64,000 nucleotides of DNA, from the NCBI RefSeq assembly GCF_020621385.1, contig NZ_JAESVA010000001.1:558001-622000 (forward strand), given 5' to 3'. The translations under genes and the position numbers were made by a program. Positions within the stretch are counted from its first letter, which is position 1, and every line of letters starts with the position of its first letter. This DNA is from Acidisoma cellulosilyticum. GTDB taxonomy: Bacteria; Pseudomonadota; Alphaproteobacteria; Acetobacterales; Acetobacteraceae. Positions 16,210-62,989 of this stretch are shown here, piece after piece. Under the pieces are notes generated by a model, which saw only the letters and a list, made by a program, of their open reading frames with translations, did no database searches and was not told the origin of the DNA.

Positions 16210-17787
16210 ATGTCCGATCAAGCCCTTATTCCCGTCCGCCGCGCCCTTATCTCGGTCTCCGACAAGACGGGGCTCATTCCTTTCGCCCAGGCGCTGGCCG
16301 CAGCGGGCGCCGAAATCCTCTCGACCGGCGGCACGGCAAAAGCCATTCGCGAAGCGGGCATTCCGGTGAAGGACGTCTCCGACCATACCGGCTTCCCTGA
16401 GATCATGGACGGGCGCGTGAAGACCTTGGTGCCGCAGATCCACGGCGGCATCCTCGCCCGCCGTGACCTGCCCGAGCATCTGGCCGCCATGGAAGAACAC
16501 AAGATCGCGCCGATCGACCTCGTCTGCGTCAATCTCTATCCCTTCGAGGAGACGGTCGCCCGCCGCGCCGATGCCGAAACGACGATCGAGAATATCGATA
16601 TCGGCGGCCCGGCCATGATCCGCGCCGCCGCCAAGAACCATGATTTCGTCGCGATCCTGACCGACCCCGCGCAATATGCCGAAATCGAAGCGGCGCTGGC
16701 CGAAGGCGGCACCGATATCGCGCAGCGCCGCCGCCTGGCGGGCGCGGCCTATGCCCGCACCGCCGCCTATGACGCGGCGATCGCGACCTGGTTCGCGGGT
16801 GAGCGCGGCGAGGCCTTCCCCGATCGTTTTGCGGTCAGCGGCCAGCGTCGCCAGCTGCTGCGCTATGGCGAGAACCCGCATCAATCAGCCGCCTTCTACG
16901 TCACGGACAGCCGTCCCGGTGTCGCGACCGCGCGCCAGGTGCAGGGCAAGGAACTTTCCTACAACAACCTCAACGATACCGACGCCGCTTTCGAATGCGT
17001 GGCCGAATTCGAGGAACCGACCGTCGTCATCGTCAAACATGCCAATCCTTGCGGCATCGCTTCCGGCGCATCGATGGCGGAAGCCTGGGACCGCGCGCTG
17101 GCCTGCGACCCGGTCAGCGCCTTCGGCGGCATCGTGGCCCTGAACCGCACGTTGGACGAGGCGACGGCGAAGCGCATTTCCGCGATCTTCACCGAGGTCA
17201 TCGTCGCCCCCGATGCGACGCCCGAGGCCGAGGCCGTGCTATCGGCCAAGAAGAACCTCCGACTGCTGCTGACCGGCGGCCTGCCTGACCCGGCAGCGCG
17301 GATGGCCGCCTTCCGCTCGCTCGCCGGCGGCTTTCTGGTGCAGGACCGCGACGCCGGCCGCGTGACCGCCGCTGACCTTCGCGTTGTCACCAAGCGTGCG
17401 CCGACCGAACAGGAACTGACGGACTTGCTGTTTGCCTTCCGTGTCGCCAAGCACGTGAAATCCAACGCCATCATCTACGCCAAGGCGGGTGCGACGGTCG
17501 GCATCGGCGCCGGGCAGATGAGCCGCGTCGACAGCGCCCGCATCGCGGCCTGGAAGGCCGGCGAGGCCGCCAAGGCGGCCGGTCTGGCCGAGGCTTTGAC
17601 CATCGGATCGGTCGCGGCCTCCGACGCCTTCTTCCCCTTCGCGGATGGGCTGGAGACGATCATCGCGGCCGGTGCCACGGCCGTCATTCAGCCTGGCGGG
17701 TCGATGCGCGACAATGAGGTGATCGCGGCGGCGGACGCAGCCGGCATCGCCATGGTACTGACCGGGATGCGCCACTTCCGGCACTAG
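16210..17787 (+). CDS. purH: Bifunctional AICAR transformylase / IMP cyclohydrolase
   Basis: A 525-residue PurH performing the last two steps of IMP synthesis. The N-terminal IMP cyclohydrolase domain starts [21 protein letters not shown]. The C-terminal formyltransferase domain includes the catalytic Lys-His pair in [11 protein letters not shown] and the closing [14 protein letters not shown]. Full length for the family. The TAG stop at 17785-17787 is contributed by the terminus of a palindromic element; removing that element would leave a TAA stop at the same codon. Confidence 0.97.
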
Positions 17788-17945
17788 AGTTTGTCTGATT
17801 TTAACTGAAGCTTGTGCCTAATATCGTCATGCCCGGCCCCAGAGCCGGGCATCCATTCGTTGGGGCGCCCAAGGACTGGATGACCGGGTCAAGCCCGGCC
17901 ATGACGGGGCAAGGGGTCGTTTCCACGTAAACCTGACGGACTCTA
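17785..17945. mobile_element. MITE-like palindromic element A at the purH stop codon
   Basis: A 161-bp element bounded by TA on both sides. The right terminus, read inward, is TAGAGTCCGTCAGGTTTAC and continues GTGGAAACG; it matches the left terminus of element B (62017) at 27 of 28 positions. The left terminus is a diverged copy (TAGAGTTTGTCTGATTTTAA). The inside carries palindromes of the CGTCATGCCCGGC / GCCGGGCAT type that are common between alphaproteobacterial genes. There is no coding capacity. A TA duplication and short inverted ends suggest mobilisation by an IS630/Tc1-mariner-type transposase, which is not in the window. Confidence 0.7.
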
Positions 17946-17991
17946 AACCGTTCCCTCGCACCTGCCGGCGTAAGCCGGCGGGCAGGGACGA

Positions 17992-18714
17992 TCAGTCCAG
18001 GTCTTCGGTGCTGCTGCTCCAGGTGGCACTCGAAATGCCGGGCATGGCTTCCAGCTTGGCCGTGACAGCGTCCAGGTCACCGACTTCGACCGCGGTCGAA
18101 ACCAGGGTCGCCCGGACTTCCGACAGACCGTCCGGGCGGTCCATCAGGTCGATATCGCTGATCGGATAATGGGCGGCCTGCAGCAGGGCCATGACGGCCT
18201 TCCGGGCAGCGGCCGCCCCTTCCACCGTCGTCATGACGCTGATCTCGTAAATCGCTTCCGTGGCGCTGCCATGGACCGGCGCGCGGTTGATGCGGTTGAC
18301 CAGCGGCTGCAGCAGCGTATTGGCAGCGACGACGAAAATCGTCAGCGCTGCCGCCTGGGCCCCGAGATTGGCGCCGGCACAGGCGCCGACAGCCGCCGAG
18401 CACCACAGGGTCGCCGCCGTATTCAGGCCGCGCACATTCAGCCCGTCCTTCATGATGACGCCGGCGCCGAGGAAACCGATGCCGGAAACGACATAGGAGA
18501 CGACCTTCACGCCGCCATGGCCGCCGTCGAGATTCATCGCGAGATCGACGAATTCGCAGGCCCCGAGTGCGACCAGCACATTGGTGCGCAGACCCGCGCT
18601 GCGCTGCTTCCATTGCCGTTCAGCCCCGATGGCGGTGCCCAGCACGAAGGCCACCACGAGCCCGACAAGGGTGTTGAGGAAGTCCAGGCCATGGAAGGTT
18701 TGGAACATGAGCAT
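17992..18714 (-). CDS. MgtC/SapB-family membrane protein
   Basis: A 240-residue protein with four to five N-terminal transmembrane helices and a cytoplasmic C-terminal ACT-like domain (from about residue 150, EAIYEISVMTTVEG). The MgtC signature is clear in GTAIGAERQWKQRSAGLRTN and in VSGIGFLGAGVIMKDG, followed by NVRGLNTAATLW. Family members are linked to growth in low magnesium and acid stress. The start could be the ATG at 18714 or the one at 18708. It is divergent from the mbfA-like gene. Confidence 0.9.
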   Translation of the reverse strand: MLMFQTFHGLDFLNTLVGLVVAFVLGTAIGAERQWKQRSAGLRTNVLVALGACEFVDLAMNLDGGHGGVKVVSYVVSGIGFLGAGVIMKDGLNVRGLNTAATLWCSAAVGACAGANLGAQAAALTIFVVAANTLLQPLVNRINRAPVHGSATEAIYEISVMTTVEGAAAARKAVMALLQAAHYPISDIDLMDRPDGLSEVRATLVSTAVEVGDLDAVTAKLEAMPGISSATWSSSTEDLD

Positions 18715-61029: not shown

Positions 61030-62019
61030 ATGCGCATCCATATCCAGAATAATCCGAAGCAACCCGCCGTCTTCAATGTCTCGCCCGAGCAATGGGGAGA
61101 GGCCTTGGCCCGTGCCGGCAAGGCGGAAGCCGGCTATTTCGTCAGCTTCGGCGAGAGCGACGGCGAATTCACGGCGGTCGGCCCCGATATCGACATCCTG
61201 ATCTCGGGTCCCGGCACCATCAAGCATCTGCTGCCGGATTTGCAGCCGGATCGCGCCCCCAAGTTGAAGATGATCTTTTCGGTCGCGGCCGGCATCGATG
61301 CCATCCCGGCCGATCGCGTGCCGCCCGTGCCCTATGTCAACAATCGCGGTGCGCATGCGGAAAAAGCCGGCGAATTCGTCGCCATGGCGCTTCTGATGCT
61401 GGCCGGCGGCATGCCGGAATGCATTGCCGATCAGCAGAACAAGGTTTGGGGCCAGCGCTTCACGCAAGGATTGCGCGGCCGGCGCGCGACCATCCTCGGT
61501 CTCGGCGCCATGGGCGGCGCCTCGGCCGAACAGGCCAAGCATTTCGGCATGCATGTGACGGGGTTGCGCACCCGTCCCGCGCCGCATCCCGCCTGCGACC
61601 GCGTGCTGCCGACCGATGACCTCGACGCCGTGCTGGCGGAGACGGATTTCCTGATCATCTCGGCGCCTCTGACGCCTGCGACCCGCAAGATCCTGAATAA
61701 GGACCGCATCGCCCTGATGCCGAAGGGCGCCTACGTCATCAATATCGGCCGCGGCCCGCTGATCGACCAGGACGCGCTTTGTGATGCTCTGGACGATGGC
61801 TTTCTGGCGGGCGCCGTTCTCGATGTCTTCGATCCCGAGCCGGTGCCGGCGGATGATCGCGTCTGGACCACGCGCAACATGATCATGACGCCGCATGTCT
61901 CGGTCGATGACGCAATCAGCTACGTGCCGCGCTCGCTCGACATCTTCTTCGCCAATCTCGCTGCTTTGGAGACAGGCAAACCGCTGCTGACGCCGGTCGA
62001 CTTTTCGCGGGGATATTAG
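61030..62019 (+). CDS. D-2-hydroxyacid dehydrogenase, GhrA-like
   Basis: A 329-residue NAD(P)-dependent dehydrogenase of the glyoxylate/hydroxypyruvate reductase type. The cofactor motif is ILGLGAMGGASAEQAKHFG. The catalytic Arg is in INIGRGPLID, Glu in VFDPEPVPAD and His in MTPHVSVDDA. Substrate preference cannot be assigned. The TAG stop is the first three bases of palindromic element B. Confidence 0.88.
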   Translation: MRIHIQNNPKQPAVFNVSPEQWGEALARAGKAEAGYFVSFGESDGEFTAVGPDIDILISGPGTIKHLLPDLQPDRAPKLKMIFSVAAGIDAIPADRVPPVPYVNNRGAHAEKAGEFVAMALLMLAGGMPECIADQQNKVWGQRFTQGLRGRRATILGLGAMGGASAEQAKHFGMHVTGLRTRPAPHPACDRVLPTDDLDAVLAETDFLIISAPLTPATRKILNKDRIALMPKGAYVINIGRGPLIDQDALCDALDDGFLAGAVLDVFDPEPVPADDRVWTTRNMIMTPHVSVDDAISYVPRSLDIFFANLAALETGKPLLTPVDFSRGY

Positions 62020-62213
62020 AGTCCGTCAGGTTTACTTGGAAACGCCACCAAATCTGTCGTGCGCGGGCCTAGCCGGCCGCACCCCGACCCGCGCATCTAC
62101 CCGGCGGAGCAAGCGACCGGCCGGCTGGCGCCGCGGCGGGTAGGTCCGGGGCGCGTAGCCCGCGCAACAAGTGCGCGGATGACAAATTATCTATTAAAAC
62201 CTGACAGACTCTA
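62017..62213. mobile_element. MITE-like palindromic element B at a stop codon
   Basis: A 197-bp non-coding element flanked by TA at both sides. Left end TAGAGTCCGTCAGGTTTAC (continuing TTGGAAACG), right end read inward TAGAGTCTGTCAGGTTTTAA, so the termini are inverted repeats of about 17 bp. The interior is very GC-rich and palindromic (GCGCGGGCC, GACCCGCGC). Removing the element with one TA leaves the upstream gene ending in TAG followed by GGTTTCG. See element A at 17785. Confidence 0.72.
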
Positions 62214-62245: not shown

Positions 62246-62989
62246 CTACCGTCCGCCGGAGACAGTCACGACAGTCCCGGTGACATAGGACGAAGCCGGG
62301 GAGATCAGCCACAGCACCGCCTCGGCAATCTCCTCCGCCTCGCCGACACGCGCCATGGGAATGCCGGTTTTCTGCGCCTGCTCGCGCATCTCGATCGTGG
62401 TCATGTCGGTGGCCGTCATGCCCGGTGCGACGGCATTCACACGGATGCCGTCGCGCGCCACTTCATTGGCCAGACCTTTGGTCAGGCTCTCCACCGCGCC
62501 CTTGGTCGCCGCATAGGGCACGACACCGGAGAGACCGCCGAGGCGCGCCGCGACCGATGAAACATTGACGATGGAACCGCCCGCGCCGCCATGGGCTTTG
62601 GACATGCGGCGCACGGCTTCCTGCGCGCAATAGATTGTGCCGTAGACATTGACGGCGAAAAGCCGCTCGATATCGGCCTGCGGCTGGTTTTCGAGCTTTG
62701 CGTTGGCGCCGATCAGGCCGGCATTGTTGACCAGACCACCGATCGGGCCGAGTGCGGCTTCGGCGGCCACGAACATCGCCGCGACGGCTGCCGGGTCAGC
62801 CACATCACCGCCGACCGCAACCGCCTGTCCCCCAGCCGCTTTGATCTCAGCGACGATGGCCTCGGCGGCATCCGCCCGGCTCGCGTAGTTCACCGCGACG
62901 GCATAGCCCTTCGTCGCCAGAAGACGACAGATGGCGGCGCCGATGCCCCGGCTCCCCCCGGTCACAAGAACGGCTGGGAGCTGGGTCAT
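62246..62989 (-). CDS. SDR-family oxidoreductase
   Basis: A 247-residue classical short-chain dehydrogenase. The cofactor motif is VTGGSRGIGAAI (residues 9-20), with NNAG, and the catalytic Ser-Tyr-Lys in VNVSSVAARLG and VPYAATKGAVESL. It resembles glucose 1-dehydrogenase or 3-oxoacyl reductase types but is not in a fatty-acid cluster. It lies 30 bp downstream of the pyruvate kinase gene. Substrate unknown. Confidence 0.85.
   Translation of the reverse strand: MTQLPAVLVTGGSRGIGAAICRLLATKGYAVAVNYASRADAAEAIVAEIKAAGGQAVAVGGDVADPAAVAAMFVAAEAALGPIGGLVNNAGLIGANAKLENQPQADIERLFAVNVYGTIYCAQEAVRRMSKAHGGAGGSIVNVSSVAARLGGLSGVVPYAATKGAVESLTKGLANEVARDGIRVNAVAPGMTATDMTTIEMREQAQKTGIPMARVGEAEEIAEAVLWLISPASSYVTGTVVTVSGGR

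Follow-up and report, generated by a model that had tools for sequence, protein, structure and literature searches.

We report that copies of two short elements, A and B, lie exactly at stop codons in the host genome (G000; 6.0 Mb in 59 contigs) far more often than their target word, YTAR, is found there: 44 of 67 two-ended copies are at a stop codon, 23 are intergenic and none is inside a called gene, as compared to 64 stops among the 566 YTAR words that lie outside genes in a 400-kb background (Fisher p = 1e-21). This strong stop-codon habit is real in the host genome; as a general rule beyond that genome it is unproven. Judged from their sequences, A and B are mobile, non-autonomous MITEs of the IS630/Tc1-mariner type. 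We consider it probable that the habit results from insertion of such MITEs at YTAR combined with purifying selection against insertions elsewhere.

Elements A and B in the window

Element A, 161 bp long, occupies positions 17785-17945 of the window (the whole 64-kb stretch of DNA that was analysed) and reads TAGAGTTTGTC...GACGGACTCTA. The purH ORF (16210-17787) ends in a TAG that is at the same time the start of the element, and removal of the element together with one TA leaves CAC TAA ACC at the end of the gene. Identification of purH rests on Pfam and on NCBIfam TIGR00355, the profile being matched up to its last position. Element B, 197 bp long (62017-62213), starts on the TAG stop of the ORF at 61030-62019, and its left end equals the right end of A, read inward, at 27 of 28 bases. 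The preliminary description of this DNA had given the coordinates of A, the TAG of purH, the TAA on removal and the match to B, all of which we reproduce. The terminus pattern has three matches in the window, where none is expected by chance. The features at the two sites are as follows.

17785-17945, no strand assigned: MITE copy A, target TA written at both ends; its first TAG is the purH stop; YTAR target; empty site in congener G004
17785-17795, forward strand: left terminal inverted repeat TAGAGTTTGTC, which holds the purH stop and is predicted to base-pair with the right end on folding
17829-17852, forward strand: internal hairpin ATGCCCGGC...GCCGGGCAT, part of the REP-like core (from sequence)
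17928-17945, reverse strand: right terminus TAGAGTCCGTCAGGTTTA, read inward (terminus search)
16210-17787, forward strand: purH, ending at element A; its congener match has its stop, TAA, at that codon too
17961-17986, forward strand: host stem-loop ~15 bp past the purH stop once the element is removed (by eye, from sequence)
17992-18714, reverse strand: MgtC family gene, convergent neighbour of purH (ORF list, domain search)
62017-62213, no strand assigned: MITE copy B; its first TAG is the stop of the D-2-hydroxyacid dehydrogenase-like gene
61030-62019, forward strand: D-2-hydroxyacid dehydrogenase-like gene, ending at B (above the Pfam cut-off, below the NCBIfam cut-offs); its congener match has its stop, TGA, at that codon too and lacks the element
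62246-62989, reverse strand: short-chain dehydrogenase family gene, convergent neighbour of B (ORF list, domain search)

The ends of both elements are imperfect inverted repeats, and each whole element folds as RNA better than its shuffled versions (z -4.3 for A, z -4.2 for B); the earlier term “palindromic” is thus apt for the folding and too strong for the ends. In the predicted fold of A the purH stop codon falls inside the terminal stem, where an effect on translation termination is conceivable. The core of A (17829-17900) resembles what we take to be a REP-type palindrome, and it also matches sites that carry no MITE ends, both in the host (e.g. G000:C7:147214-147297) and in congener G004.

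The congener G004 has purH without the element: the gene ends there in ...CGC CAC TTC CGG CAC TAA CTC, and the flank matches lie 15 bp apart. The TAA that had been proposed as the ancestral purH stop is therefore seen where the element is absent. By eye, a stem-loop also follows the stop in G004, ~10 bp behind it; as both genomes have one downstream of purH, element A lies between the stop codon and the stem-loop.

Copies in the genome and target word

A whole-genome search with the terminus, allowing up to three mismatches, gives 142 end matches, as compared to 1 for a reversed control. Element A has 32 near full-length copies at 96-100% identity (mostly 97-98%), and the 161-bp copies (n = 28) differ from their consensus by 1-4 bases. 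The 42 matches listed for element B range from 71 to 100% identity, some of them partial. From copies fetched with their flanks, whose ends were listed only in part, we paired the 67 two-ended copies of 157-198 bp that are used throughout; 14 ends with at most two mismatches were left unpaired. All 67 are too short for a DDE_3 domain (model length 146 positions). One, L159 (180 bp), has a family A end and an end of the family C described below, and is probably a mosaic. Five paired copies form a local cluster inside ~10.3 kb of L137 (G000:C17:37100-53500).

With one TA removed, the base before the target TA is Y in 66 of the 67 copies and the base after it is R in all 67, so that the target word is YTAR, which is its own reverse complement; CTAG accounts for 19 of the 67 words. 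The preliminary description was right that the elements insert at TA, and the target is narrower than the “any TA” that it envisaged. Because ends were paired only where each carried a TA, the 67 copies are no test of TA duplication, which is supported independently by the single TA at the empty purH site of the congener.

The mobility of A and B, proposed earlier as that of a TA-targeting element of IS630 type, follows from their dispersed, near-identical copies and from empty sites. We find a flank match in G004 for 23 of the 67 elements (794 kb compared), and at six of these sites, purH included, both flanks lie at most 38 bp apart, too short for an element. The preliminary description had suggested a look for empty sites in relatives, and purH and the five further places provide them. 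It had also raised the case of ancestral, non-mobile sequence lying behind the genes, for which we found no support and to which we attach practically no credence: besides the empty sites, near-identical copies occur at unrelated places, and the terminus with at most one mismatch occurs 0, 0, 1 and 5 times in congeners G001-G004 as against 100 times in the host, G004 also having a separate, diverged family.

Copies at stop codons

Genes were called in frame by a home-made codon-pair scorer, trained on the fetched DNA and applied to emptied sequence, so the element's own TAG is unable to create the result. The background consists of 20 other stretches (400 kb), hand-picked by position away from the listed copies. 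Among unoccupied non-genic YTAR words at the same loci as the elements, 96 of 556 are stops, again far fewer than among the elements (Fisher p = 6e-16), and the difference persists when the comparison is confined to words lying no more than 50 bases past a stop (p = 1e-4 for the same loci, p = 5e-3 for the 400-kb background). Measured to the nearest stop, 44 elements are at it, 13 within 50 bases, 6 within 200 and 4 beyond, as compared to 64, 54, 91 and 357 background words. Called genes hold 221 of the 787 YTAR words in the background and none of the 67 elements. Among all TA words of the same 400 kb (L208-L227), YTAR makes up 221 of 5389 in called genes and 566 of 2254 outside them (stops included).

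The stop fraction is 37/55 for well-matched ends only and 37/60 when seven apparent re-entry sites are left out. It is 17/31 for the more uniform A-sized copies as against 27/36 for the more diverged B-sized ones, which does not decide between the two groups (p = 0.12). The 161-bp form of A, the most uniform family, has 15 of 28 at stops. The count against chance that the preliminary description had called for thus favours stop codons, and the converse case, most copies lying away from stops, did not occur in the host genome.

Might the ORFs only seem to end at an element by way of its terminal TAG? The caller is home-made and some called genes are short, yet such an artefact is very improbable, the calls having been made with the element removed and 35 of the 44 cases involving genes that encode 150 aa or more and have a high coding score. 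Congener G004 agrees: comparing 50 gene-element pairs at a minimum of 60% identity (5 weaker matches left out, orthology being taken as the best match), we find the same end codon in 11 of the 12 element-bearing genes with a congener match, the twelfth being one codon off. Furthermore, six elements sit on one TA common to two convergent stop codons; the element parts the two stops, and each gene gets a TAG. For five of the six pairs the proteins were searched against Pfam, and all 10 gave a match at E <= 0.001 (L199 left being below the Pfam cut-off).

Some stops appear, from the sequence that follows them, to have been entered more than once. An AG follows the emptied stop (TAGAG) in 12 of 50 gene-stop instances, as compared to 6 of 65 in the background, and in 7 of the 12, which belong to 7 of the 44 stop sites, the DNA after the emptied stop looks by eye to be another MITE terminus (4 of family C, 3 A/B-like).

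Two possible trends in codon identity were set aside. Conversion of TGA to TAG by the element was examined through the congener, which has TGA in 7 of 10 element-bearing genes and in 6 of 14 element-free genes that have TAG in the host (Fisher p = 0.2, the two window genes being scored with the element's own TAG). A bias toward TAG over TAA at occupied stops (37 to 13, as compared to 34 to 31; p = 0.02) weakens to p = 0.10 without the TAGAG sites.

Gene neighbourhood and origin of the habit

The sequence of events that we propose is as follows. A transposase acting in trans would insert the MITE at the TA within the palindromic YTAR and duplicate that TA. As the element begins with TAG and ends with CTA, the two junctions would read YTAG and CTAR. 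Read in frame, YTAR places TAA or TAG behind a codon whose last base is C or T, and in-frame insertion can therefore occur only at a stop codon; there it would swap the stop for TAG at the same codon and leave the protein unchanged. Insertions within genes, between the genes of operons or in promoters would be removed by selection, and survivors would be found chiefly in short convergent gaps, where the stop is often the sole YTAR. Since the junction again reads YTAG, the same stop would stay open to repeat entry. The safe insertion into stop codons suggested in the preliminary description agrees with what the 44 copies at stops display, a TAG restored at the same codon.

The gene arrangement around the 67 copies (44 convergent, 22 tandem, none divergent and 1 at an edge) fits this account. 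Divergent gaps hold 121 of 444 background words, and tandem gaps of at most 100 bp hold 38 background YTAR words and only 3 elements; few copies in short tandem gaps and none in divergent ones is the outcome expected from loss in operons and promoters. Where convergent genes lie no more than 100 bp apart, each of the 26 elements is at a stop, as are 12 of the 16 background words. We infer that purifying selection is the main cause of the distribution.

There is nonetheless a preference for the stop within gaps of a kind. A random pick of a YTAR word within the same gap would put 36 of the 67 elements at stops, fewer than the 44 observed (p = 6e-4), and in the 26 gaps that offer a choice between a stop and another YTAR, 17 elements occupy the stop where 8.9 are expected (p = 6e-4). 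The within-gap test is conservative, as it conditions on gaps that may have been chosen for their stops. Across six strata of gap type and size, which take in 65 of the 67 elements (the other 2 are without a gene on both sides), the common odds ratio for the stop is 4.9 (p = 3e-5). Uniform insertion followed by selection should spare the other YTAR words of convergent gaps equally, yet this is not what the odds ratio indicates; moreover, with 15 of 28 of the most uniform copies already at stops, selection would have needed to act fast. Also against insertion at YTAR with subsequent filtering are the lack of a transposase with matching ends in the host genome, the related family of Niveispirillum irakense (2/11 at stops and 2/11 scored in genes, the latter with poor ends), and the reliance on a home-made gene caller and hand-picked background stretches. 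The target word together with loss of copies elsewhere seems to explain most of the habit, with the residue, the odds ratio of 4.9, remaining.

That residue is what active targeting would account for: the transposase or a host factor would steer insertion to gene ends or stops, guided e.g. by the topology of the DNA, or by proteins bound to it, at sites of convergent transcript ends, and the exact base would be set by YTAR. The preference for the stop within a gap class and within the 26 mixed gaps speaks for it, as do the crowding of elements at the stop rather than merely near it and the six elements on a TA common to two convergent stops. We nevertheless regard steering of this sort as unlikely, for the sites carry no sequence signal beyond YTAR except a mild GC enrichment at a few positions, RNA folds no differently behind occupied stops than behind empty ones, the literature covered offers no precedent among IS630 elements, and the pattern is not replicated in N. 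irakense. A stronger form, in which IS630-type machinery actively finds the stops of convergent genes and the stop becomes a self-renewing attachment site, each insertion rebuilding YTAG and leaving it open to re-entry by the same or another family, we hold to be unlikely as well.

Positive selection offers another route, the hairpin at the stop being kept as a bidirectional terminator or as a 3'-end stabilizer between convergent genes. The 44 convergent locations, the favoured short gaps and the stable folds of A and B are what it would lead one to expect. We consider it doubtful, because the region around element A (17500-18300, the one examined) contains no terminator-like site, orientation at stops has no clear bias (9:8 for A; 14:9 for B, with 4 not assigned), and the purH copy is followed by a host stem-loop that by eye has a counterpart in the congener. 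In addition, pneumococcal repeats have the same convergent bias, which in their authors' view may reflect tolerance of parasitic elements (PMC3049150). A terminator role as the main cause was rejected on the missing site near A, the absence of a clear orientation bias and the finding that the 60 bases downstream fold alike whether the stop is occupied or empty. The benefit from a palindromic terminator behind the gene, suggested in the preliminary description, is not supported.

Candidate transposases

In the 59 contigs of the host genome, from which a copy may be missing, we did not find an IS630-type transposase with the ends of A and B. The IS630-type sequences found are confined to three contigs, C26, C31 and C29; those on C26 and C31 show other ends (TAGAGCGTTTC), and C29 has no matching terminus within five mismatches. 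The element on C26 (L193, 255-2664) is split by a second insertion that contains a 377-aa ORF, presumably an IS110-type transposase. A partner transposase in the same genome is usual for a MITE, not required.

Elements A and B do share the end TAGAGTCTGTCAGGTTTA with 1054-bp IS630-type elements, found in other genomes only, whose other end differs more. These relatives, in Sinorhizobium meliloti 4H41 and Rhizobium sp. L43, contain two overlapping ORFs, one HTH-like and one with DDE_3, in addition to the end TAGAGTCTGTCAGGTTTA. The IS630-like transposase with the same ends that the preliminary description had proposed to look for is thus absent from what we have of the host and represented, at one end, elsewhere; we infer that A and B are mobilized in trans. 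The Sinorhizobium full-length copies are mostly at contig ends and so are missing flanks. Several S. meliloti 4H41 contigs (seen at L039, L047 and L057) start or stop exactly at the 1054-bp element, an assembly break at a repeat.

Other families and genomes

The host has a second MITE family, C (105-106 bp), whose two termini, TAGAGCAGATC and TAGAGCGTTTCC, are not alike; the first 16 bases of TAGAGCGTTTCC are common to an end of the IS630-type element on contig C26. Family C has the stop-codon habit too. Among 41 matches listed, 30 have loci and 28 could be classified, the other 2 having no clear ends: 16 are at stops (including L334, whose ends are doubtful), 12 are intergenic (1 of them divergent) and none is in a gene. 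The target is YTAR in 25 of the 28 and CTAG in 16. The sites of the family are L159:7523-7628 and the 30 loci L333-L362.

In the congener G004, 31 loci were tried, and the 6 with clear ends comprise 3 at a stop and 4 with YTAR. A related 163-bp family in N. irakense yielded 11 paired copies from 18 loci tried, of which 2 are at stops, 7 are intergenic and 2 are scored in a gene. Both in-gene copies are among three pairs with a 7-8-mismatch end, and their words are not YTAR; without those three pairs, 2/8 are at stops, 8/8 have YTAR and 7/8 are convergent. A majority of copies away from stops, a possibility raised in the preliminary description, is not what the host genome shows, but it may hold for related families elsewhere. 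Across other named genomes, 3 of 28 ends are on a called stop (some being without flanks). Rhizobium oryziradicis has 39-bp near-perfect palindromes consisting of two termini back to back (L037:2396-2434, L037:7054-7092 and L051:3129-3167), which are possibly minimal elements.

Implications and comparison with known systems

The habit suggests a simple rule: a target word that amounts to a stop whenever it is read in frame, together with a terminus that restores the stop, would permit low-cost spread in a gene-dense, GC-rich genome. The general idea that gene tails tolerate small repeats becomes base-exact and countable, and selection versus targeting becomes a directly testable question. For annotation, the ends of genes in such genomes can be mobile-element sequence, and the identity of a stop codon can change through insertion, as from TAA to TAG at purH.

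Several known repeats and elements invite comparison. REP elements are single short palindromes, some tens of bases in length, that lack terminal inverted repeats and target-site duplication. Element A has a REP-like core, but at 161 bp, with terminal inverted repeats and TA at both ends, it is not a REP element by that definition. Tenzen and Ohtsubo reportedly described, in 1991, a preference of IS630 for CTAG; the word for A and B is instead YTAR, no partner transposase with the same ends was found for them in the genome, and for them the stop habit is quantified. Duplication of a TA target is documented for IS630/Tc1-mariner-type elements such as IS630 and ISY100 in the accessible part of PMC2170065, and this duplication, together with the terminal inverted repeats of these elements and their MITEs, is also seen in A and B. 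A literature search, mostly outside subscription journals, yielded no account of a stop-codon habit of IS630-type MITEs.

The preliminary description knew of no report of this habit; that needs qualifying in light of the pneumococcal BOX repeats, which supply 36 genes with their stop codon, there being no strong evidence that the genes are truncated, according to the available portion of that study (PMC3049150, BMC Genomics 2011). The same portion describes enrichment of BOX, RUP, SPRITE and IS elements between convergent genes in pneumococcus (PMC3049150), and the accessible text of another study links RUP to IS630-Spn1 and to TA (PMC2229807). As far as those texts extend, BOX, RUP and SPRITE resemble A and B in being short repeats enriched in convergent gaps, and they differ in that their accounts include neither a target word equal to a stop codon nor exact TA insertion into a stop, both of which hold for A and B. 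In Coxiella, QMITE2 exemplifies how the stop codon of a gene can be determined or shifted by a MITE lying at its 3' end (PMC5896051, in the part available); unlike A and B, what is described there is one gene, enhC, whose protein is lengthened by the insert in one strain.
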